Below, piece after piece: positions 8,823 to 21,643 of a stretch of 23,117 bases of DNA; the first letter of the stretch is position 1; each line of letters starts with the position of its first letter. The position numbers were made by a program, and so were the translations under genes. Origin of the DNA: a virus. The notes under the pieces are model-generated. The model searched no databases and was not told the DNA's origin. It worked only from the letters and a program-made list of their open reading frames with translations. Location: positions 1 to 23,117 of IMG/VR virus record IMGVR_UViG_3300050821_011445; one strand, 5' to 3'.

Positions 8823-9848
8823 CTAGGAAACCGGGTTGGCGACGCAGCCGGAGAGGAACGTTCCCAGTTCCGGAGCGGTCAGCTGGCAGACGTAGGACGC
8901 CTCGATCTCGATGCGGTCCGACGCGATGTGCTCCATGCGGTACTTCTTGATCCGGCCGCCCCATGCGGAGGCGCCCAGGTAGCCGTTCCACGCGAAGGTG
9001 TAACCGGCGGAGGGGGTCATCCGGGAGGGACGAGGGGCCGAGAAGATGAGCAGGATGCCGTTGGAGTCCGCCGCATTGGAGGCGCCGGTGATCCACTGGG
9101 TGGTCGGCGCGGTGTCCGCGACGATTTCCTCGTCGAGGTTCGTCGCCTGCACCGCGGAGGCCACGAGAACCTGGTCGATTCCCACGGCGCGGGCGATGAG
9201 CTGCTCGGTGATGAAACCGGCCTGCGTGTACTTGATGCGCTCGATGATCTCCGGGTGGTCCAGCAGCGCGTTGTACGCGTTCGCGGAGAACACCGCGATG
9301 TTCGGCATCATGCCGGTACGCCGCTTGAACCGCAGCATCGCAGCACGGAAGACTTCAATCGGTTGGGAACCGGCGAGGTCGAACTGCGTGAACTGCGTGG
9401 AGGTGGGGGAGTTCGAGGCGACACCCGTCAGGGTTTCTCCCCAGACGTTCGAGGCGAAGTAGGAGCTCACCCACTGGAGGTCGCGACGGATGAGGAGCTG
9501 CTGCGTGATGAGCTCCGTGCCCGCCGTGTCGAACTGGAAGTTGGCGTCCGCGTTGGAGCGGAGCTGGTCTTCCACGTCGTAGTGCAGACCCCACACCTGG
9601 GTGGTGTAGGTGGACTTCGTGAACGTCCAGTCCACACCCGGGGTTTCCGTTCCCGGTGCGCGCAGGGCGGCCTGCGACTGGAGGTAGCTCCTACGGCCGA
9701 AGCGGTAGTAGAAGTCGGAGATGTGGTCCACCGGGACGACCGGGAAGACCTTGTCCGCGATGAAGTCCTTCGACTGCTGCGCGTACGCGATCATGATCTG
9801 CGTCAGCGGCACCATCACGTGGACATCAGACGGTGTGATGTTCGGCAT
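8823..9848 (-). CDS. Major capsid protein
   Basis: A 341-aa protein starting at ATG 9848 with AGAGGG nine bases upstream. It lies downstream of protease, scaffold-like and decoration genes, and upstream of connectors, as expected for the major capsid gene. N-terminal features include ITPSDVHVMVPLTQIMIAYA, FIADKVFPVVPVDH and FYYRFGRRSYL, followed by VWGLHYDVEDQLRSNAD, the usual arrangement of HK97-fold coat proteins in which residues before and after the E-loop are aromatic and charged. Later segments (MMPNIAVFSANAYNALLDHP, FITEQLIARAVGIDQVLV) are typical of the coat P-domain and A-domain. Length fits the family. The exact Pfam family (E-like or another HK97-fold group) was not decided. Confidence 0.93.
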   Translation of the reverse strand: MPNITPSDVHVMVPLTQIMIAYAQQSKDFIADKVFPVVPVDHISDFYYRFGRRSYLQSQAALRAPGTETPGVDWTFTKSTYTTQVWGLHYDVEDQLRSNADANFQFDTAGTELITQQLLIRRDLQWVSSYFASNVWGETLTGVASNSPTSTQFTQFDLAGSQPIEVFRAAMLRFKRRTGMMPNIAVFSANAYNALLDHPEIIERIKYTQAGFITEQLIARAVGIDQVLVASAVQATNLDEEIVADTAPTTQWITGASNAADSNGILLIFSAPRPSRMTPSAGYTFAWNGYLGASAWGGRIKKYRMEHIASDRIEIEASYVCQLTAPELGTFLSGCVANPVS

Positions 9849-10716: not shown

Positions 10717-12687
10717 TTAGCGGAGCTGCTTGGCTTCCTGGTAGAACTCGCCCGGGTGGTCCTTCATGTACTGGACCGCCGCCTGCTCGCGGGTCACGCC
10801 CTCGCCGTTGGACTTCCGGATCTGGTCGTCGGCCGCCGCGTAGGCCTTGGCCACCTTGGCGTTCATGTCGTCGTCGCCCAGGGAACCGGCGCCGGTCATG
10901 CCGTACTGCTTGAGGACCGCCGAGTCGTTGACCACGTTGGCCGACGCCGCGAGCATCTGCTCCAGCTCCGCGCCCATCTCCGGGTCCGTCTCGTAGGCGA
11001 CGCGCAGCTGCTTGGCCACCTTCTCCTCGTTCCAGCCGGGGATGCCCCGGAGCTCCCGCGCCTTGGAGATGTACTTGTTCTGCTCGCGCTCCTCCAAGAG
11101 GTCTTCGAGCATGTCCAGACGGCCCTTGAGGACCGGGTCCAGCTCGACCTCGATGCTGTCCTCGCCGCTCTGCGCGACGGACTTGTAGAGCTTCTTGTTC
11201 TTGCCCACGACGGTCTCCACCTTCTCGTTCTTGTTGGCGCGGGTGGTGGTCTTCAGCCTCCCCATGGAGTTCGTAGCCACCGAGTCCATCTTGTCCGCGT
11301 CCACGCCCTCGGACGCCTCGTCCGACATCTCGGAGGCAGGGCTGGCCTTGGAAAGAAGTTCGTACACTTCGGTCGCCACGTTCTCCACCTGAGTTCCAAG
11401 GGAGCTCGACTTCGTGATGGAGGAACCCGCGAACCATTCCTGGGCGCCAGCGTTCAGCACGTCCAGGAAGTCTTCGACGACCGCCGGGTAGAGGTCCGGG
11501 CGGTCCTTGTCGTGGATGGCAACCAGGTTCTTGGCCAGCCGCACGGCGAGGTTCGCCGCCTCCACGGCCACAAGGCCCTTCTGGAGCTGCTCCGGGGACA
11601 TGCGCCGGGACTTGTCCAGCGGGTTGGGCGGAGGGGCCACGGCGGTCCGCGGCTTGGTCGTGTACTTGTTGTGGCCGGTGCCCACGCCGTTCCGCTTCAC
11701 CCCCGGCTTGGTGTAGATGCCGTCCGCGGTGCCGTGGTCCATGATGTCCAGGCCCTCGCGGTTGGTCTTCTTGCGCCGCGCCTTGCCGATGCGCAGCGGC
11801 CGGTTGGCGTCGGACATCGTGGACTCCAGACGTGTCTGTGCCGGAACGGTGGGATCGGCTTCGTGCCGGTACATGTGCTCCGCGTTCTCCGTGACCACCT
11901 GGCTCCCGCCGTCAGTCAGGTCGTAGGAGTTCAGGCCCGGGTTCTCGGCGGTCTTCTTCAGCCGCTTCTTCTTGCCGAAGTCGGCGCGCGACTTGTGCGT
12001 GGCCATCGTCGAGTCGCTGGAGGAGGTGGCCGTGTTGGTGTATCCGCTACCCGGGTTCGGAGGCCGCTTCAGGCTGACGGGCTTGGTCTCCGCCAGCTGC
12101 TCGATCTCGCTGTCGTCGTCCTCGCCCTCCTTCTGGTGCTCCAGGGCCTCGTTGTCCACCGTGTCCACGGATTCCCCGGAACCGGCGTCCGCCTTCTCGA
12201 TGTCGTCCTCGAACCAGCCGTCGCGGCTGGCTCCGCTGTTGGACTTGCTCATCTTCGCCGAATCTCCTCCAACGTCGTCGATGTCGTCCTCGATGCTGCC
12301 GCCGAGGGCCTCGCCGTTCTCCCCGTTGTCCTGGTCGTACTGCTCGTCCTCGAACGTGTATCCGCTGGCGTTCGACGGGGAGTTCGTGGAGTCGTCGTTC
12401 TTCGGAGCGTTCTTCAGATTCGTCACCGTCTTCGTGACGACGATCCGCGTCTTGGCCAGATCAGAGGAACCGCAGCGCTTGCACTTCTGCGCGCCCTTGG
12501 CGTTCATCATCCCGCAGTGGTTGCACTTGATCTGGCCCATGGCCTTGCGGACGGTGAGAGTCTTCGGAGCAGGCTTCCGGTTCTTGGCGAGAAGAATGTG
12601 GGCGTGCGCGTTCGCCCCCTCCGCCACGAGGTCGACGCGGTCGTACTTCATCCGCGTCAGCGCTTGGCGCTTCCGTACTTCTGTCAT
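10717..12687 (-). CDS. Scaffold-like head assembly protein with N-terminal zinc ribbon
   Basis: A 656-aa protein. ATG 12687 overlaps the protease stop (ATGA) and has GAGG eight bases upstream; the open frame reaches 13035 but that part overlaps the protease gene. Residues 1-45 contain YDRVDLVAEGANAHAHILL, a segment often found near the end of phage head protease/scaffold proteins. A zinc ribbon follows (C-x2-C-x10-C-x2-C, about residues 54-71). Residues about 75-300 are low complexity, acidic and Ser/Asn/Lys-rich, probably disordered. The C-terminal half is helical (ELDPVLKGRLDMLEDLLEER, QYMKDHPGEFYQEAKQLR). The C-terminal H-P-x-x-[FY] helix resembles scaffold tails that bind coat protein. 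Length is well above usual scaffolds (150-350 aa). The role is inferred from position and composition. Confidence 0.75.
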   Translation of the reverse strand: MTEVRKRQALTRMKYDRVDLVAEGANAHAHILLAKNRKPAPKTLTVRKAMGQIKCNHCGMMNAKGAQKCKRCGSSDLAKTRIVVTKTVTNLKNAPKNDDSTNSPSNASGYTFEDEQYDQDNGENGEALGGSIEDDIDDVGGDSAKMSKSNSGASRDGWFEDDIEKADAGSGESVDTVDNEALEHQKEGEDDDSEIEQLAETKPVSLKRPPNPGSGYTNTATSSSDSTMATHKSRADFGKKKRLKKTAENPGLNSYDLTDGGSQVVTENAEHMYRHEADPTVPAQTRLESTMSDANRPLRIGKARRKKTNREGLDIMDHGTADGIYTKPGVKRNGVGTGHNKYTTKPRTAVAPPPNPLDKSRRMSPEQLQKGLVAVEAANLAVRLAKNLVAIHDKDRPDLYPAVVEDFLDVLNAGAQEWFAGSSITKSSSLGTQVENVATEVYELLSKASPASEMSDEASEGVDADKMDSVATNSMGRLKTTTRANKNEKVETVVGKNKKLYKSVAQSGEDSIEVELDPVLKGRLDMLEDLLEEREQNKYISKARELRGIPGWNEEKVAKQLRVAYETDPEMGAELEQMLAASANVVNDSAVLKQYGMTGAGSLGDDDMNAKVAKAYAAADDQIRKSNGEGVTREQAAVQYMKDHPGEFYQEAKQLR

Positions 12688-13199
12688 AGCGGGATCCTCA
12701 TTCCCGTTCCCTGCACCGACATCATGGCGTACTTGCCTTTCTTCACGCCGTCCCACGCTGCGGGATCGCTGATGTGGAAACCGGTCCACCAAGCGATCGG
12801 AAGGACCCCGGACGGGATCCCCATGGCCTTCCACTTCTCCGGGGTGGACACGAAACTCTCGATGAGAGTGCCCTTGCCGCCCTTGCCGATGTGTTCGACG
12901 CCCTGGTCCCGGCCGTGGAGGGTGAAGTCGTAGGCCGCGTCCTCGATGTCCTCGATGCTCTTGAGGACGTCCCCCTGCCAGTCGGTGTACTCGCGGTACT
13001 GCCCGTTGTCCGGAAGGTATCCGACGGAAGCCCATCCGAAGACGTTCTGCTTCTCGACGTTGAACTTCTGGATCCGGTGGAAAGTCTGGAAGCGGAAGTC
13101 GTCCCGCCCCTTCCAGATCCTCGCCTGCATGTCCGGGATTTTAGTCCCGACGAGTTCTGAAAAAGTACGGAACTCATTGTCCGTGATTGTAAGGTCCAC
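12684..13199 (-). CDS. XkdF-like prohead maturation protease
   Basis: A 171-aa protein starting at GTG 13199 with GGAG seven bases upstream. The central part matches the XkdF-type phage serine protease family (Peptidase_S78_2): DWQGDVLKSIEDIEDAAYDF, then GVEHIGKGGKG with candidate catalytic His103, TLIESFVSTPEKW with candidate Ser115, and GVLPIAWWTGFHISDPAAWD followed by VKKGKYAMMSVQGTG. In this family the protease cleaves scaffold and coat arms inside the prohead. The gene is directly before the scaffold-like gene and overlaps it by four bases, so equal expression is likely. The catalytic residues are assigned by family pattern from reading the sequence, not by alignment. Confidence 0.88.
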   Translation of the reverse strand: MDLTITDNEFRTFSELVGTKIPDMQARIWKGRDDFRFQTFHRIQKFNVEKQNVFGWASVGYLPDNGQYREYTDWQGDVLKSIEDIEDAAYDFTLHGRDQGVEHIGKGGKGTLIESFVSTPEKWKAMGIPSGVLPIAWWTGFHISDPAAWDGVKKGKYAMMSVQGTGMRIPL

Positions 13200-13203
13200 A
13201 GTT

Positions 13204-13698
13204 TTACTCCGTCAAACCCGAGAAGCAGGAAACCGCAGGCTCGAAGACGTTTCCGGACTTGCCGACCGAGGAACTTTCCGCCAGCGGGTTCTTCGCTCCG
13301 AGCTGCTTGGCCCGCCGCGCGATCAGGCGCTTCGCCGCGCCGACATCACCGTGGCCGGAGCGCGCGAGGGTCGCCGCGTTCTTCAGATCCTCGGTGTCCT
13401 CGATCGGGTACGAGTTGTTCGGCAGCGCCTTGCCCTGCGCCGCGAGGCTCCGGCGGTTCTTCGCGGAGTGGAACTTCTTCTGGACGTGCACCCGAGTATC
13501 CATCTTCTCCAACCAATCCGGCGTGTACTGGATCTGCTTGACTTTTCTCTTCTGTTCCCTGTTCCGCACCCGGCGCTCTTCGTCCATCGCCGTGGAGAAC
13601 TTCTTCTGCTTCTTCCGCGGCGGTGCCGACCCGGCCCCGTCCACATCGCTGTTAACTTCCCGGATCACGTGGACTGCGGAAGGCACTAGATTGGGCAA
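13204..13698 (-). CDS. Basic head-assembly protein with SYPI-type motif
   Basis: About 164 aa if translation begins at TTG 13698, chosen because GAGAGGGG lies eight bases upstream. The frame opens at 13746 (TTG) and also offers GTG 13707; either choice overlaps the preceding gene. Residues 30-80 are very basic (PPRKKQKK, RRVRNREQKRKVKQ). The C-terminal half holds KALPNNSYPIEDTEDLKNA followed by GDVGAAKRLIARRAKQLGA. This S-[YF]-P-I-x-x-x-x-D-L-x-x-A ... A-x-x-x-I-x-x-R-A-x-x-L-G pattern recurs in actinophage prohead protease and capsid-associated proteins, usually as one domain of a larger protein. Here it is on its own next to the protease. Exact role is unknown. Confidence 0.7.
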   Translation of the reverse strand: MPNLVPSAVHVIREVNSDVDGAGSAPPRKKQKKFSTAMDEERRVRNREQKRKVKQIQYTPDWLEKMDTRVHVQKKFHSAKNRRSLAAQGKALPNNSYPIEDTEDLKNAATLARSGHGDVGAAKRLIARRAKQLGAKNPLAESSSVGKSGNVFEPAVSCFSGLTE

Positions 13699-14188
13699 TA
13701 CCGTCACCCCTCTCGGCAGTCTTGAAGCGCTCGTAAGCTGCGGCAATCGCCTTCTCGGTCCACTCGTTGGCCAGCAGGTTCCTGCGCGTGGTGAGCAGCG
13801 TGCTCCTTTTTATCTGGAGATCCGACGCCCTTGAGCTGTTCCGGTAGAGATCGACCATCACGCGCGCCATCTCGGGGGTCATCCCCAGAGTCAGACCCCG
13901 GATCTTCTTGGCTTCCTGCTGGGTCATGCCCATGAGAACCAGGTCGTTCGACTTCTTGTTCAGCAGGTCGACCTGGGCATGGAGGACAAGGGTCCGGATC
14001 TCCTTGGCCACGCCGTCGTCGTGCAGGACGAAAGTCGATCCGATGAAGTACGCGACGTCCGCGTAGACCTGGTAGAAGGCCAGGTGGACCGGGGTCATGT
14101 TCAGCTGCGGGAAGTTGACGCAGGCACGGGTGGTGGCGAGGCGCATCCTGGCCTTGGCGTCGTTGACCGCTTCCGGATTGAGAATCAC
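13652..14188 (-). CDS. Head-region protein of unknown function, 178 aa
   Basis: A 178-aa protein. GTG 14188 overlaps the portal stop (GTGA) and is preceded by GAGGGTG nine bases upstream; the frame extends to 14737 but that part overlaps the portal gene. The sequence (ILNPEAVNDAKARMRLATTR, NMTPVHLAFYQVYADVAYFI, LVLHAQVDLLNKKSNDLVLM, MTPEMARVMVDLYRNSSR, NEWTEKAIAAAYERFKTAER) is almost fully helical. It occupies the place after the portal where many phages carry a MuF-like head morphogenesis protein, but no MuF signature is visible. Its 3' end overlaps the next gene by 47 bases with the chosen start. Function is unassigned; a portal or internal head role is inference. Confidence 0.75.
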   Translation of the reverse strand: MILNPEAVNDAKARMRLATTRACVNFPQLNMTPVHLAFYQVYADVAYFIGSTFVLHDDGVAKEIRTLVLHAQVDLLNKKSNDLVLMGMTQQEAKKIRGLTLGMTPEMARVMVDLYRNSSRASDLQIKRSTLLTTRRNLLANEWTEKAIAAAYERFKTAERGDGIAQSSAFRSPRDPGS

Positions 14189-17100
14189 TGGGTTATCACC
14201 CTCGGGAACGGGGCGTTCGGGTTTCCGTTGACGGGGCTCACCTGGTTGTTCTGCGTCCACCGGACTTCCGCGCGTCCTTGCGGGACGTGGATGTTGCAGG
14301 TCCGGTGCAGGATCGAGCCGCCCTGCATGAACCGGTTCTTCTCCGGGTTCTGGCAGTAGTCGCACTTCTTCATCGGGTACTTGACCTTGACCACGGTGAC
14401 CGGCGGACCGCTCTTTGACAATGCGTCCACGGTGTCCGAGAAGCTCTTCACCACGACCTTCACGGGCTGCTTCTCGGCCTCGAACCTGTCGCAGACGTCC
14501 TCGGGGTCGATGGCGCCCTTGACCAGGGTGCACGAGCCGGGGCCGCGGAACATGACGCAGTTCTCGCACTTCCTGGAACCGATGGACGGGCGGTAGTGCA
14601 CCTCCGCCTTGGCCAGCTTGTTGCGCGCCTTCTCCAGCTTGTCCGACTTGATGGCGTCGTGGACGCGGTCCAGGCTTCCGCGGAGCTCCTTGCGCAGGGC
14701 CGGGTGGTCGTCCGACAGATGCTTGGGGTCCCACCACGCCAGGGATTCGACGTTGTCCCCGTCCGGGTCGTCAGGGTTGGTCACCTGGTCGCGCGCCCCG
14801 TTGATGGGCACCTTGTGCTCGTGCGGAACAGTCAGGACAAGGCCGTGGTAGACGTTGTCCGGGCTGCTCCAGTGGCCGGTGAACTCCCCCTTCGGGAGCT
14901 TCATTCCGGTTTCTTCCTGCCATTCCCGGATGCCTGCGGATTCAGGGGACTCGTCCAGCACCTCCCGCCGTCCGCCGGGGAACTCCCACTTTCCGGAAGC
15001 CGGGTCGCTGTGGTCGAGGCCGCGCTGGAGCATGAGCACCCGGCCGGTGTCGGCCGCCTTCACCGCCACACCGCCAGCGCCGACCAGCTTCAGCCTGCTC
15101 TTCCTGACTGCGCCGCCCTTGTCGCCGGGCTCGTATCCGGATCCGTCCGGGCTCCTGCTCACCAGCTGGTGGCTGTGCATGGTCTCCCAGGGGCCGGAAT
15201 CCTTGGCCACCTTTCCGATGAACACCACCGGATCGACGCCAGCCTGCTTGTACGCGAGGACGTGGTGATGTCCGTCCACGACGCGCAGGTGGCTGTGCCC
15301 GGGCGCCCGGACCACCACGACCGGCTTCTGGACACCGCTCCGGATGTTCTTGGCGAAGTGGTCCACCTTGGCCTGCTCGTGGTGGGCCGCCCAGCGCTTC
15401 TCGTCGGAGAAGTCGATGTCCGTGACGGGAACCCGGACGGGCCCGGTCCAGCTGGCGTCGTCCATCCAGTCCATGTACCTCTCGGGGAAGTCCGAGGACA
15501 TCTGCTTCTTCACCTTGGCCAGCACGCTGGTCTTGGCGACGCTGCGGTTCTTCAGACCGCCGGTGGATTTCGCCGGTGCGTTCTGGGACGCCCTCGTGGC
15601 GATGGTCGTGCGCCGGGCCGCCGGAGGCTGCGTGGACTTCACCGGTCCGGTGGACTTCGTCGGAGCCCCGGGCGCGGATCCCTTCTGCTTCCCGCCGGTC
15701 CCCACAACCTTCGCTGCGCGGTTGGTGGCCGTCGCCTGCGCAGCACCCTGGGCCGGGCTCTGCTGGCCCGTGGAGGGCGCCCCCGGGGCTCCACTGGCAC
15801 CGCCTGCCGGTGGCTTCATGGTGATGGGGTCCATGCGCTCGACGATGCTGCCCTGCGGCGCGGGGACGATGCCCTCCGCGTTCGCGTCCCGCGCGGTGCG
15901 CTGCGCGATGTCCTCTTCCGCCGCGGAGCTGGCCAGCAGGGTGTCGAGCTGCTGGTTGATGATCTGGTCCTCGATCGCCTCGTTGGCCGGGTTCTCCTCG
16001 CGGATCGGCAGCTTGGCGAACTCGCGCAGATGGTTCTCCAGCCCCATGTCCGGGAAGAGCTGCGCACCGGCTCCGGCCATGGAGGAGACCAGCGTGGCCA
16101 GGTCGGTGAGGGTGGGCTTCTGGACGATGTCGTGCCGGAATTTCGGGTACGGCCCGTTGTTGAGGCCGTTCATCCGGAACAGCAGCGGGACGGCCCGGTT
16201 GTTCAGCTCGTTCTCGATGTCGTTCAGGAAGGTCTCCAGCGCGGACTGGAACATGCTGGCCTTGGAGGTGGACAGCGCGTAGGAGCCGTTGTTCGTCGCG
16301 TCGTTTCCGAGCAGCAGGAAGTCCGCCAGCATCGTCATCGCGATACGGGACTCGTACCGGCTGATGATGGTGTCGGTGGGGAACTGCCGCGTTCCTCCGG
16401 AAGTCAGGAGCTTGAACGTGTAGAGCTCGTGACCCGCTTGGTCGTAGGCCTGCGGCCAGACGATTCCTTCCTGCTCGTCCCTCCGGACGTTCTGGACCAG
16501 CTTGACGACCGAGGCCACCATCGCCTGATCCGCCTCGCTGGCGTTCTCTCCCAGCATCTCCGCTGGGACCGTGGCGATCGGGATACCGGCCAGGTCGCGC
16601 TCGACGCCGATGGCCTCGATCTCCTCGATGCGCTTGAGGAAGTACCACGCCCGGTAGGCGCTGCGCAGAAGGGAGACGCCTTCGGGGTTGTCCTTCCAGG
16701 ACTTCGTGCGGAAGTGCAGGGACTTTCCGATGGGCAGGTAGCGCTCGGAATAGTCCGGAGCGGGGCGCTGCCACATGCCGATCGTCTTGCCGGTCTGCGG
16801 GGAGAAGTCCCACCTCCACCAGGATTCCTGGGCGATCGGCATCAGCTTCTCCCAGCCGTACAGGCCGTCGTTCCACTGGGAGGCGGTTGTTCCGAACTCG
16901 TCCACGACATCGTTGAACCTCTGCTTGTAGCAGATCTCGAACCAGGACCATCCGAAGATGAGCATCGAGTTCACTTCGGAAATGAAGTCCGGCCAGCTCA
17001 TCTCCATGTCGTCCTTGCAGGACTCCAGGAACTTCGCCCGCTGCTTGTCCCCCTTCGAGTCGCTGGCCGGTTCGACGCGCCACGCCACCTTGCGCATGAA

Positions 17101-17325
17101 CATGTCGATGGCGAAGATGACCGCTCCGATGACAGAGGAGTTCTGGTACATCTCCTGGTAGACGCTGACCGCCTTGCGGCCTGCCAGCTGCGGGAGCAGC
17201 TCCTCATAGATGTACCCGTAGGAGCGCTTCAGGCCGCTCTGGCCGAGCTGGACCGCGCCCAGACCCAAGCGCGGTTCGGCGCCGGAAAGCGTGGGCGTCT
17301 TCCTCACCTTCAGTTTCGGCGCCAC
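14185..17325 (-). CDS. Portal protein fused to ParB-like, Nudix and zinc-binding domains
   Basis: A 1046-aa protein starting at GTG 17325 with GAGG upstream; earlier in-frame codons overlap terminase. Residues about 1-500 are portal (DUF935/Mu gp29-like: SVYQEMYQNSSVIGAVIFA, MLIFGWSWFEICYKQR, LHFRTKSWKDNPEGVSLLR, TIISRYESRIAMTMLADFLL). A Pro/Ala/Gly/Thr linker covers about 500-610. A ParB-like domain follows (about 625-705; PVTDIDFSDEKRW, HLRVVDGHHHVLAYKQAG). A Nudix domain follows (about 745-880; WEFPGGRREVLDE with REWQEETG; the box has one extra residue between GG and the first catalytic Glu). Two Cys clusters end it: C-x2-C-x8-C-x12-C (about 915-942) and C-x2-C-x18-C-x2-H (about 986-1012). 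Normal portals are 400-550 aa. The frame is uninterrupted across all domains. Function of the additions is unknown. Confidence 0.9.
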   Translation of the reverse strand: MAPKLKVRKTPTLSGAEPRLGLGAVQLGQSGLKRSYGYIYEELLPQLAGRKAVSVYQEMYQNSSVIGAVIFAIDMFMRKVAWRVEPASDSKGDKQRAKFLESCKDDMEMSWPDFISEVNSMLIFGWSWFEICYKQRFNDVVDEFGTTASQWNDGLYGWEKLMPIAQESWWRWDFSPQTGKTIGMWQRPAPDYSERYLPIGKSLHFRTKSWKDNPEGVSLLRSAYRAWYFLKRIEEIEAIGVERDLAGIPIATVPAEMLGENASEADQAMVASVVKLVQNVRRDEQEGIVWPQAYDQAGHELYTFKLLTSGGTRQFPTDTIISRYESRIAMTMLADFLLLGNDATNNGSYALSTSKASMFQSALETFLNDIENELNNRAVPLLFRMNGLNNGPYPKFRHDIVQKPTLTDLATLVSSMAGAGAQLFPDMGLENHLREFAKLPIREENPANEAIEDQIINQQLDTLLASSAAEEDIAQRTARDANAEGIVPAPQGSIVERMDPITMKPPAGGASGAPGAPSTGQQSPAQGAAQATATNRAAKVVGTGGKQKGSAPGAPTKSTGPVKSTQPPAARRTTIATRASQNAPAKSTGGLKNRSVAKTSVLAKVKKQMSSDFPERYMDWMDDASWTGPVRVPVTDIDFSDEKRWAAHHEQAKVDHFAKNIRSGVQKPVVVVRAPGHSHLRVVDGHHHVLAYKQAGVDPVVFIGKVAKDSGPWETMHSHQLVSRSPDGSGYEPGDKGGAVRKSRLKLVGAGGVAVKAADTGRVLMLQRGLDHSDPASGKWEFPGGRREVLDESPESAGIREWQEETGMKLPKGEFTGHWSSPDNVYHGLVLTVPHEHKVPINGARDQVTNPDDPDGDNVESLAWWDPKHLSDDHPALRKELRGSLDRVHDAIKSDKLEKARNKLAKAEVHYRPSIGSRKCENCVMFRGPGSCTLVKGAIDPEDVCDRFEAEKQPVKVVVKSFSDTVDALSKSGPPVTVVKVKYPMKKCDYCQNPEKNRFMQGGSILHRTCNIHVPQGRAEVRWTQNNQVSPVNGNPNAPFPRVITQ

Positions 17326-17336
17326 TTGTCGGTACC

Positions 17337-18773
17337 TCAAATCTTCCAGGGTGAAGTCTCGCGTGTGATGGAGACGACCGAAGTGCTTCTGTTCTGGTTC
17401 CGCTTGCGGGCCACCCACGCCAGCGCCACGGAGGCGATGGTGTCGGGGAGGTGGGCGCTCGGCCCGATGTTGTAGAGGTTGTCCGCGGTCACGAACCGGA
17501 AATCGTCGTACATGCTCGTGATCCGCGGGGCGAGGAAGTTGTCGCCCTCCACGCCGGTCACGAACTCGGTAATCATATCCGTTCGGACCTTGCCGTTCAT
17601 AGAAATCTCGGTGAGATTGTCCCGGACGGTTCCACGCGGATAAACCAGATGGTCGCCGACAACAGATCCGACGCCGGTTCCGTCGGAGACGACATCGCCG
17701 CCGTACAGGGCCCAGCGCTTGTTCAAACGCTCGATCATCACAGGCCAGGGCCTGTTGTTTATCTTCTCGAACGCCGCGAGCTTCCACTGGCCGACCGTGG
17801 TGTCCCAGGTGGTGATGACCGTGAAGTCGCGGGACTTCGCCCAGTCCACCCCGGTCACGTAGTCGCGGTCCGGCCGGGGCTTCATGAACTGGTAGTACAT
17901 CCCCGGCTCGCCCTTGACCACGTCCCACCGGGGGTCGAACATCCGCTCCACCGCGGCCTCGTCCAGAGCACGGCCCTCGAAGTTAGGCTCCAAGATGTCG
18001 TACTCGTTCTTCCACATCTGGGAGGGAATTTCGAGTCGCTTGCGGTCGATCTCTTCGGGGTCGAGCCACCCGTCATAGACGTTCCCGTTCTTGTCCAGCT
18101 TTTTCGAGGTCTCTTTGTAGCACCAGGAATAGACCGGGTTACCCTTCTCAGCGAACTCTCGCTTGTAGTAGGTGACGGGTCCGTCCGGATAGGTGTGCGT
18201 ACTGGAGAAGATAGTGGACGTCTCGATACGTTCCCCGGTGAGGCGAGAAACTCCGCGCATAGGCTGGCCAAGGGCGGCCTGCACGATGTCTAGGTCGGCC
18301 TCGTCGATCTCGTCAATCCGCAGGCGGGAAGGGTGGGGTCCACGGACAGATGTCTGGGAAGCCATCAGTGTTCGCGCCTTGCCGCCGTTCGTCAGCTCGG
18401 TGTCGAACTTCGTCGGCGCCTTCACCAGCAGATACTTCGGAGCTTTCGGCTTGTGCCACAGGTCATTCATGGACGCCTGCACACGCATGGCCTGCGCACC
18501 GGAACCGCCGAGGATCGATACTTCCGCACCGAGGAACGTCATCTCCATCATGCCCAGCAAGGACATGGTGAACGTCTTGCCGGAGAAACCGCGAGATCCC
18601 AGCCACATCGACTGGGGACTGCGTGCGAAGAACCCGTTGCAGAAGGCCTCGAACGGGGTGTCGTGGTGCGGACACACCCGGACACGGGGAATCTTTATCC
18701 CCCACGTGGCAACGACAGCCCAGTAGAGTTCCTCGTCCGTCTGCGGAGGACGTTGGATGACGAATTGCGGCAT
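17337..18773 (-). CDS. terL: Terminase large subunit
   Basis: A 478-aa packaging motor, starting at ATG 18773 three bases after the preceding stop. No Shine-Dalgarno site is visible, so translation may depend on coupling to the 128-aa gene. The ATPase half carries a Walker A motif GSRGFSGKT (59-67), Walker B LRIDEIDE (151-158) and a coupling motif near STIFSSTHTYPDGP (186-199). The RNase H-like nuclease half has TGVDWAKS with Asp310, VVSDGTGVGS with Asp364 and HLPDTIASVALAW with Asp444, consistent with the metal-binding acidic triad. The enzyme cuts concatemeric DNA and pumps it through the portal, which is encoded next. A small terminase subunit is not recognised anywhere in the window. Confidence 0.96.
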   Translation of the reverse strand: MPQFVIQRPPQTDEELYWAVVATWGIKIPRVRVCPHHDTPFEAFCNGFFARSPQSMWLGSRGFSGKTFTMSLLGMMEMTFLGAEVSILGGSGAQAMRVQASMNDLWHKPKAPKYLLVKAPTKFDTELTNGGKARTLMASQTSVRGPHPSRLRIDEIDEADLDIVQAALGQPMRGVSRLTGERIETSTIFSSTHTYPDGPVTYYKREFAEKGNPVYSWCYKETSKKLDKNGNVYDGWLDPEEIDRKRLEIPSQMWKNEYDILEPNFEGRALDEAAVERMFDPRWDVVKGEPGMYYQFMKPRPDRDYVTGVDWAKSRDFTVITTWDTTVGQWKLAAFEKINNRPWPVMIERLNKRWALYGGDVVSDGTGVGSVVGDHLVYPRGTVRDNLTEISMNGKVRTDMITEFVTGVEGDNFLAPRITSMYDDFRFVTADNLYNIGPSAHLPDTIASVALAWVARKRNQNRSTSVVSITRETSPWKI

Positions 18774-19731: not shown

Positions 19732-19856
19732 CACTTGCCTCCCTGCTGCTTGTTACTCGGCTTGGGGACGCGCCGGAAGCCCTTGAGGATGACCTGCCGC
19801 GCCTTCTGCCCCTTGGTCCGAGCCGCCCGCTTGGCGGACCGCGCATTAGTCCCCAT
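19731..19856 (-). CDS. Small very basic peptide, 41 aa
   Basis: A 41-aa gene starting at ATG 19856, eleven bases inside the end of the ParB/DUF4417 gene, and ending with TGATG that overlaps the start of the Lys-rich gene. The sequence MGTNARSAKRAARTKGQK continues as ARQVILKGFRRVPKPSNKQQ, with about a third of residues Lys or Arg and a single acidic residue absent. Ribosome site is modest (GAGAGG, thirteen bases away). The tight overlaps on both sides argue that it is a real member of the operon. Length and charge suggest nucleic acid binding, but no family is recognised. Confidence 0.6.
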   Translation of the reverse strand: MGTNARSAKRAARTKGQKARQVILKGFRRVPKPSNKQQGGK

Positions 19857-21162
19857 CGTTCTCGAAACCTCTCGTCCGCTTCTTGGAACGGATCTGCCGC
19901 TGGCCCTTCACGGTGGTTCCGGAGTCGAGAAGCTCCCGGCGCCGGTTGGTCCGAGTTTCCACCCGCACGACTTCCGCGTCCAGACCGGCGCGCTTGACCA
20001 CCTCGTCGGCGTCGGTATGCCCGTAGACGAGGATCTGCTGGAATCCGATCTGCTCCTCCGCCTTCTTCAGAAGTCTGGCGGTGGTGCGGATGCGGTCCGT
20101 GTCTCCGCGAACGGTCTGCACCTGCGTGGCGACCACCGGAGCGCCTTCCGGGATGCACTCCAGGCAGAGTTCCAGGGCCTCGTCGCTACCGCCGTACTGG
20201 ATATCCGGGATGACCAGGATGTCCGCCTCTTGCCAGTACCGGGCCACGTAGGCGGAACGATAGGCAGCGTAAATCCACAGAGCTGCGGGCCACCCGGTAT
20301 TTATGCTGTAGTTCGGCATGATGCACGTGGTGATCCCGCAGTTCAGGATCTTCTTCGTGTTCATCGCCGGATCGGTGTAGAGCCCCTCGAAGTGGAAGTC
20401 CTCCGTGTAGAGGCTGAGAATGCTGCGATCGAAGGGGATACCCCGGTTCCCGGTGTGCCACTGAGAGACCCACCACTGGCTTTCATCCGCGGCTCGGTCG
20501 GCGTCCAGCTCGATGCCGCCCCACATGTCCAGCTTCTCCGGAAGTTTCTCCGGAATCCTGTCGAGGCGCAGCTCAGGTATGTCGTAGTTCTTGTCCGAGT
20601 CGAAAAGGACGTACCGGCTCAGGTCGTCCACACCACCGAGGTCGTCCGGGGCGTCCTCGATGCTGTCGATGGAGTCGAAGGGGTCCCGGTTCATCTCCAC
20701 CAGAAGTTTTCCCAGGGATTCCTCGTTGTACGTGGTGCCGATCAGGTGTCCCAGTTCCTTCTTCTGCTCGTCGAGGAGCTGCGCGAGGATCGTGGGATCG
20801 TAGGTGGCGTCGTCGCTGGAGCCGTTGAGAGCCAGGACGATCTTCCGCGCCCCCGCTTCGTCCACGTCCACCCACCGCACGTCCACCGTCTTTCGCTTGA
20901 TGGCGTGCAGGGCCTTGAGCCGGTGGTTCCCGCTGAGAATCTCGTTCGGCCTGCCGGTCTTGGTCCCGATGTTGACGACAATGTTCTCCAGGAACCCGTT
21001 CGCCTTCACACTCTCCGCGATCTTCTCGACGTTGCCGCGCCGCGGGTTGTTGTGGAAGTAGTTCAGGGTGGTTACGTCCACACCGGATTCGTAGACACCC
21101 TCGTCAGGAACGGCGCTTGCCTGCTCGCTCTTGGGCTGCGGCTTTCTCAGTTTTCCGGGCAC
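19846..21162 (-). CDS. ParB-like domain protein fused to DUF4417-like domain
   Basis: A 438-aa protein starting at GTG 21162, with GAGGAAG upstream, overlapping the resolvase gene by 59 bases. Residues about 28-130 are a ParB/Srx-type domain: LNYFHNNPRRGNVEKIAESV, GFLENIVVNIG, and EILSGNHRLKALHAIK with the G-N-H-R motif at 78-81 in the place of ParB G-E-R-R. Modern ParB proteins bind CTP here, while phage ParB-like domains are often annotated as nucleases. Residues about 250-390 match the DUF4417 type found in phages and plasmids (ILNCGITTCIMPNYSI, LWIYAAYRSAYVARYWQEAD, VIPDIQYGG). The C-terminus is basic. The combination suggests a DNA-handling protein working with the resolvase, which is inference. 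Confidence 0.85.
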   Translation of the reverse strand: MPGKLRKPQPKSEQASAVPDEGVYESGVDVTTLNYFHNNPRRGNVEKIAESVKANGFLENIVVNIGTKTGRPNEILSGNHRLKALHAIKRKTVDVRWVDVDEAGARKIVLALNGSSDDATYDPTILAQLLDEQKKELGHLIGTTYNEESLGKLLVEMNRDPFDSIDSIEDAPDDLGGVDDLSRYVLFDSDKNYDIPELRLDRIPEKLPEKLDMWGGIELDADRAADESQWWVSQWHTGNRGIPFDRSILSLYTEDFHFEGLYTDPAMNTKKILNCGITTCIMPNYSINTGWPAALWIYAAYRSAYVARYWQEADILVIPDIQYGGSDEALELCLECIPEGAPVVATQVQTVRGDTDRIRTTARLLKKAEEQIGFQQILVYGHTDADEVVKRAGLDAEVVRVETRTNRRRELLDSGTTVKGQRQIRSKKRTRGFENDGD

Positions 21163-21643
21163 GGATCTTCCTCGCCAGTAGTCGTTCGTGGAGGACGCCG
21201 TACCGGTGGATGGCGATGGCGTCGATCAGGTCTTGGTCCCCTTCCGCCAAATGATAGGCCTCCGGGCAGTTCTTCTCCACCCACTCCGCGACTTCCGGCT
21301 TCTTGGCGTTGCCCTTCCCGAGTACGGTTTTCTTCCAGTGACCGACGTTCACCAGCTTCAGCGGCACGCCGAAGTTACTGGCAGCAGCCATCACCGCTCC
21401 GCCGACCTGAGCCTGCACGACTGTGGAATGCACCCCGCCGACGCCGACCAGAGGAGCCTCCATGTAGATCACCGGATCTCCGCCGAAGTCCAGAAACGAA
21501 AAAACCTCCCTGTAGGCCGCACCCGTCGCCGAGTACAGCCCCGCAGGGAGGCTAATCGTGTGAAGTTCTGAGTCGTACCCGTCTTCGGACACGCACAGAG
21601 CTAGCTTCTTGGAGCTGGGGTCGATGCCGATGACTGTTCTCAT
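21104..21643 (-). CDS. RuvC-like Holliday junction resolvase
   Basis: A 179-aa RNase H-fold nuclease starting at ATG 21643, twelve bases after the preceding stop, without a clear ribosome site. The first strand has VIGIDPSSKKLALCV with catalytic Asp8; the second acidic site is VIYMEAP with Glu62; the final helix is EGDQDLIDAIAIHRYG with Asp138 and Asp141. That arrangement is the RuvC / crossover junction endonuclease type, which resolves four-way and branched DNA. The C-terminus is basic (RKIRARKTEKAAAQERAGKR), suited to DNA binding. In phages, such enzymes debranch concatemers before packaging, which agrees with its place near terminase. The 3' end overlaps the ParB-like gene. Confidence 0.88.
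   Translation of the reverse strand: MRTVIGIDPSSKKLALCVSEDGYDSELHTISLPAGLYSATGAAYREVFSFLDFGGDPVIYMEAPLVGVGGVHSTVVQAQVGGAVMAAASNFGVPLKLVNVGHWKKTVLGKGNAKKPEVAEWVEKNCPEAYHLAEGDQDLIDAIAIHRYGVLHERLLARKIRARKTEKAAAQERAGKRRS

Follow-up and report, generated by a model that had tools for sequence, protein, structure and literature searches.

A Mu-type phage portal protein fused to ParB/sulfiredoxin-fold, Nudix and HiPIP-like modules that recur on other head proteins

Analysis of a 23,117-base IMG/VR virus record, a single contig of uncultured origin (hereafter, the window), revealed a portal gene whose product continues from a Mu-type portal core through a linker into a ParB/sulfiredoxin (Srx) fold, a Nudix domain and two Cys clusters, the first of which resembles high-potential iron-sulfur proteins (HiPIPs) as judged by profile comparison. 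Distantly related phages carry the ParB, Nudix and HiPIP-like modules too, in varying order, on portals of the HK97 type and on portal-MuF fusions, suggesting a common, so far undescribed virus-borne toolkit. What is new is the assignment of the first Cys cluster as HiPIP-like, together with the recurrence of the three modules; portal-borne Nudix was already known. An earlier note on this DNA had proposed a single frame of 1046 amino acids (aa) holding a portal core, a linker, a ParB-like domain, a Nudix domain and two Cys-rich clusters. Comparison with Pfam, PHROGs and PDB profiles found all of these parts within one GTG-started frame of 1046 aa plus a stop, with zero internal stops and a calculated mass of 115 kDa, on the minus strand, which the note had left unstated.

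Modules of the fused frame

The portal core was identified by Portal_Mu (PF06074), which matched residues 54-422 with 90.2 bits compared to a curated cut-off of 23.9, and by the adjoining upstream gene for the terminase large subunit. IMG/VR scans yielded three full-length relatives from other metagenomes, L002 (869 aa), L012 (850 aa) and L014 (942 aa), each encoding an uninterrupted portal-linker-ParB-Cys1-Cys2 protein, plus two contig-end fragments. The GTG start of the window frame and the GTG starts at the same position in the three relatives are preceded by TTTGAGG. The constant set in this lineage is the ParB/Srx fold, the HiPIP-like four-Cys module and the second Cys cluster.

The first Cys cluster was assigned from several profile comparisons. 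For a four-sequence profile of residues 905-955, PioC (5e-5) and the HiPIP 3h31 (5e-4) were the only PDB matches below E=1, and all six matches up to E=10 obtained with a 15-sequence profile were HiPIPs (PioC, E=2.9e-6; 3h31, E=1.2e-4). Two shuffled-column profiles with the four Cys held fixed gave zero HiPIP matches (best E=0.24, an aldehyde dehydrogenase). In addition, residues 904-948 of the window protein matched NCBIfam NF041615 (E=4.8e-4), the iron oxidase Iro, a HiPIP-type protein. Invariant residues of the module are Y911, R912, C920, C923, C932 and C945, and the last Cys is followed by an aromatic residue; the four-Cys spacing, the conserved Tyr and this aromatic residue are common to PioC (6xyv), 3h31 and Iro. 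In contrast to these HiPIPs, which are stand-alone cellular electron carriers, the window module is a stretch of ~46 aa inside a portal.

The earlier note had read both Cys clusters as zinc-binding. Both are present, but the zinc reading was rejected for the first because the PDB profile matched only HiPIPs, Iro was matched in NCBIfam and the Cys-preserving shuffles were negative. That the module is nonetheless a divergent zinc knuckle merely resembling HiPIPs, leaving a cargo devoid of iron-sulfur chemistry, appears rather improbable. The module is short, small zinc clusters are frequent in phage proteins and PF23601 (DUF7140, function unknown) matches the same stretch about equally well, whereas the HiPIP matches take in the conserved Tyr as well as the aromatic position that follows the last of the four Cys, and retention of the four Cys in shuffled profiles was insufficient to produce them. 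Pfam HIPIP was matched by five of the 15 module copies (best E 3e-4) and not by the window protein; PioC, an established HiPIP of only 54 aa, itself scores only 0.054 against this model (PF01355).

The second Cys cluster gave zero matches in family libraries or PDB and was confined to the lineage of the window. A MuF remnant was rejected as the origin of the C-terminus, since MuF was not matched in the window or in the contigs of the three relatives; moreover, the C-x2-C/C-x2-H arrangement is unlike the CxxC...HPRCRC end of MuF.

The ParB similarity expected by the earlier note was recovered with phrog_1033, which matched residues 648-696 (E=4.3e-6 with the whole protein and E=1.1e-7 with the isolated module), while Pfam ParB models fell below their cut-off. 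Profiles of the module matched SerK and SbnI, both ParB/Srx-fold kinases, in PDB (SerK, E=2.4e-5 with 17 sequences). An AlphaFold2 (AF2) model built from four sequences reached a predicted local distance difference test (pLDDT) score of 80, and Foldseek matched it to sulfiredoxin (E=2.5e-4) and CDP-bound ParB (E=1.2e-3). The module thus has its fold and a DGHHR-type motif in common with SerK (5x0e), SbnI (6nr6), sulfiredoxin (6ky4) and ParB-CDP (7bnk), from which it differs by low identity and by HHH in place of HHR. The Arg of the G-x-x-R motif is missing in the window, which reads GHHH, as it is in L002 and L014 and in a small number of copies on HK97-type portals, whereas L012 and most HK97-portal copies read VDGHHR. 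Because an AF2 model of the entire C-terminal half (mean pLDDT 49) was informative for the ParB part only, the Nudix and HiPIP folds are assigned from sequence.

Pfam PF00293 matched residues 757-875 with 49.5 bits (cut-off 21.1), and the PHROGs Nudix profile matched residues 743-897 (E=1.1e-14). The Nudix box reads G785-x6-E792-x7-REWQEETGM compared to the canonical GX5EX7REUXEEXGU, confirming the additional residue that the earlier note had placed between GG and the first Glu. Inactivity of the domain as a result of this residue, which has no counterpart in any of four comparison Nudix domains, is quite unlikely, given that every residue invariant in those four domains is retained, including the first Glu and REWQEETG, that the extra residue is probably located in a loop and that the domain is unbroken and remains in frame.

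In contrast to the ParB and HiPIP-like modules, Nudix was not a constant part of the fusion. No Nudix domain was found in the portal or elsewhere on the contigs, possibly fragments, of L002, L012 and L014, and ~80 unrelated residues occupy the corresponding slot in L014. Nudix is therefore an optional insert between ParB and the HiPIP-like module, present among the four lineage members in the window contig only, from which all evidence for the insert comes. In a Nudix tree, the window paired with L026 (92/88) in a poorly resolved region shared with ParB/HiPIP-bearing portals and apart from a protease-borne clade. A clade of prohead protease-Nudix fusions (L075, L077-L079, L081, L082, L087, L090, L093, L095 and L099) resembles gp52 of Streptomyces phage Gilgamesh.

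The ratio of nonsynonymous to synonymous substitution rates (dN/dS) was 0.15-0.27 in the portal core but higher in the cargo, at 0.37-0.57 overall and 0.57-0.75 in the ParB module, indicating that the cargo is under purifying selection yet changes faster than the core. For the ParB module, a quartet test of exchange had too few informative sites to distinguish recombination from faster change. Since the fusion is uninterrupted in the relatives and its cargo is under purifying selection, we conclude that it is real and maintained. A missed stop, a frameshift or another sequencing or assembly error, conceivable for a single contig of uncultured origin, is virtually excluded and already refuted for portal-ParB-HiPIP by the unbroken frames, lacking Nudix, that the search for the same fusion uncovered in three independent contigs. 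Scans of genome contigs found no relatives in cellular genomes, and no convincing match to the ParB, HiPIP or second-cluster modules was found in cultured phages.

Recurrence of the modules on other phage head proteins

When IMG/VR was scanned with five Nudix domains borne on head proteins, 131 relatives were returned; the best 80 were kept, and their modules were called with hidden Markov models built here. In at least 69 of these 80 loci, the open reading frame (ORF) containing Nudix also held a head-protein domain, in overlapping classes of HK97-type portal (52), MuF (31) and S78 protease (11). ParB or HiPIP accompanied Nudix in 16 of the best 80 loci, and 10 had both. The module order varied, including portal-ParB-Nudix-HiPIP-MuF (L021, L027 and L039, with the portal of L021 truncated where its contig stops), portal-ParB-HiPIP-Nudix (L030 and L100), portal-HiPIP-Nudix-ParB (L031, L032, L055, L080 and L088), MuF-ParB-Nudix (L064) and portal-Nudix-ParB-MuF (L062). 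A Pfam check of seven ORFs identified portal plus Nudix in six, with the portal of L100 just under the cut-off, and MuF plus Nudix in L064.

An independent IMG/VR scan with the HiPIP-like module alone, which had some contigs in common with the Nudix scan, returned 46 loci. The module lay within portal ORFs at 22 of these, and 19 of the 22 also contained ParB. At eight more loci the upstream ORF, in some cases a portal-ParB gene, ended in ParB and the HiPIP-like module formed the next gene; several of these are the same sequence from related assemblies, so they represent about four distinct phages. In L104, L116, L117 and L120 the HiPIP-like gene overlaps the stop of the ParB-ending ORF as GTGATG. 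This pattern of modules either fused or adjacent suggests that ParB and HiPIP-like modules may function together.

About a dozen HiPIP-like genes on other phage contigs lacked a recognised portal, ParB or Nudix neighbour in the examined DNA (L113, L118, L132, L134, L135, L137, L140, L141, L142, L144, L145 and L146). Portal-MuF proteins of L102, L104, L114, L116 and L131 carry a weak ~60-residue Nudix-like stretch before ParB (E about 1e-5 to 1e-7), possibly a degenerate Nudix. Two very large phage proteins, L107 (2066 aa) and L063 (2480 aa, open end), contain HiPIP-like and/or Nudix modules and no recognised portal.

Precedents and proposed role

The suggestion of the earlier note that the portal itself is the cargo carrier holds for the window but is not new. 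Fusions of phage Nudix domains to MuF, to Portal and to a capsid-processing serine peptidase have been described, with head packaging and injection proposed (PMC9503650, section 3.5.2 and Fig. 5a); the window protein resembles these in joining Nudix to a portal and adds ParB and a HiPIP-like module, whereas neither ParB nor an iron-sulfur module is mentioned there. Among cultured phages, Sonali gp3 and Mufasa8 gp3 of Arthrobacter phages combine portal, Nudix and MuF in one ~1000-aa protein. Their Nudix domains are 44-48% identical to that of the window, but the portal is of the HK97 type, MuF stands at the end, and ParB and the HiPIP-like module are lacking. Other cultured precedents are Pam4 (MuF-Nudix) and Gilgamesh gp52 (S78-Nudix).

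Polyvalent proteins offer a second parallel, with PBECR, 2H and InPase domains fused to portals and ParB domains of the DdrB-like type (PMC5512222). The window protein is comparable in having several effector-type domains in one polypeptide, including a ParB-superfamily domain, in a virion-gene context and on a carrier that is sometimes a portal in those proteins as well. The MPTase and ArdC domains typical of polyvalent proteins were not found in the window protein, and PMC5512222 mentions no HiPIP or iron-sulfur domain. Microbacterium phages similarly have a head protein, MuF, fused to the portal gene, with no enzymatic trio described (PMC7302621). Thus, although portal-borne cargo is known, we found no description in the openly licensed papers searched of an iron-sulfur carrier-like module on a portal or other head protein, of a phage HiPIP or of the ParB-Nudix-HiPIP trio.

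The portal bears exchangeable modules at its C-terminus, and on balance we lean towards a role for them as head-internal cargo for nucleotide and iron-sulfur chemistry early in infection. In P22, the inward C-terminal barrel of the portal extends into the capsid and ejected proteins cluster around it (PMC4992974). If the C-terminus of the window protein points into the head as in other portals, then twelve cargo arms of ~60 kDa would be packaged at the portal vertex, through which the DNA exits. The linker, which is both basic and conserved, may serve in DNA binding or as a cutting site for the XkdF-like protease, encoded nearby as the earlier note had indicated, and the released cargo would enter the host with the DNA. 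There, Nudix (acting on nucleoside diphosphates linked to another moiety, NDP-X) and the ParB/Srx module (an NTP or phosphoryl-transfer fold) could act on nucleotide-type substrates with an iron-sulfur partner, potentially blunting nucleotide-signalled or NAD-based host defence or resetting host metabolism. The three-module set suggests chemistry on nucleotide-type metabolites or signals at this stage. Should the HiPIP-like module bind a cluster, as many as twelve such centres would be present at the DNA exit of a tailed phage.

Several points weigh against this reading. As long as it is not cut off, an arm of the portal remains part of the particle, and the analysis identified no cleavage site. 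Relaxed constraint could account for the dN/dS difference between cargo and core, and ParB activity in the window may differ from that of most copies because HHH replaces HHR. For the iron-sulfur part, Pfam HIPIP scores of single copies (L012, L014 and L027) were below the curated cut-off, in addition to the comparable PF23601 match.

A bolder version, which we regard as possible but tentative, is a transferable cargo kit in which ParB/Srx, Nudix and genuine HiPIP-type [4Fe-4S] cassettes move between portals of two families and separate genes, and would be co-delivered as redox-linked nucleotide processing against host defence. A purely structural or assembly role appears rather improbable; the modules would then form a crown inside the head that is never delivered and that arranges the DNA close to the portal, senses packaging or helps to build the procapsid. 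Such a role would suit the well-conserved linker and extreme C-terminal tail, the basic character of the linker (+13), the capacity of ParB-fold proteins to bind DNA and nucleotides, and the scaffold- and protease-type genes that follow. In contrast, shuffled module order and fast change are unlike head-structural parts, Nudix is present or absent between close relatives with a 90% identical core, and closely related Nudix domains also occur on MuF and prohead proteases. Shuffled order, optional Nudix, and the faster change of the cargo with its insertion slot argue, short of proof, for a host-facing over a structural role. The repeated trio, shuffled on two kinds of portal and found in split-gene versions, points to a common, testable function and would offer a way into the function of many long ORFs now labelled merely 'portal protein'.

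Gene neighbourhood and coordinates

The fused frame lies among head genes (Table 1). The 178-aa gene that follows it gave zero family matches in Pfam or PHROGs scans. A MuF gene was not detected in the window or in the L002, L012 and L014 contigs, where a conserved gene of 171-195 aa takes its place.

Table 1. Features of the fused portal frame and its neighbours in the window
Feature	Position	Strand	Basis or remark
Whole fused frame	14185..17325	-	Translation; start backed by relatives and upstream TTTGAGG
Mu-type portal core, residues 37-486	15868..17217	-	phrog_113 E=1.2e-71; Portal_Mu E=2.1e-25
Linker, residues 487-600	15526..15867	-	Conserved APTKSTGPVKS...RSVAK; 65% A/P/G/S/T, with a net charge of +13
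ParB/Srx-fold module with VDGHHH motif, residues 601-735	15121..15525	-	phrog_1033, PDB profiles, AF2 and Foldseek
ParB/Srx motif VDGHHH, residues 683-688	15262..15279	-	Alignment
Nudix domain, residues 745-890	14656..15093	-	PF00293 E=5.5e-13
Nudix box GGRREVLDESPESAGIREWQEETGM, residues 784-808	14902..14976	-	One residue longer than consensus
HiPIP-like module, residues 905-950 (Y911, C920, C923, C932, C945)	14476..14613	-	PDB profile, NCBIfam Iro, shuffle controls
Second Cys cluster, C988-x2-C991...C1010-x2-H1013	14251..14373	-	Zinc-ribbon-like by pattern only; conserved in four relatives
C-terminal tail NNQVSPVN..P..PFPR, conserved	14185..14250	-	Comparison with relatives
Terminase large subunit, directly upstream of fused frame	17337..18773	-	phrog_9 E=1.1e-4; synteny in relatives
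Conserved 178-aa gene, directly downstream of fused frame	13652..14188	-	Homologues in same place in L002, L012, L014
XkdF-like prohead protease candidate	12684..13199	-	Peptidase_S78_2 E=2.4e-13
Major capsid protein	8823..9848	-	phrog_1005 E=1.1e-73

In scaffold_33 (L009), a MuF gene follows a Mu-type portal at the slot of the 178-aa gene of the window. The window encodes another ParB-like protein, separate from the fused frame and combined with DUF4417 (19846-21162, minus strand; phrog_940 'nuclease', E=7e-47), whose gene is conserved beside the terminase in L002 and L012. The window further encodes a RuvC-like Holliday junction resolvase (21104-21643, minus strand), kept in L012, and a 655-aa protein (10717-12684, minus strand) with an N-terminal zinc ribbon (CNHCGMMN...CKRCGS) followed by low complexity, whose position suggests a scaffold-like head protein.

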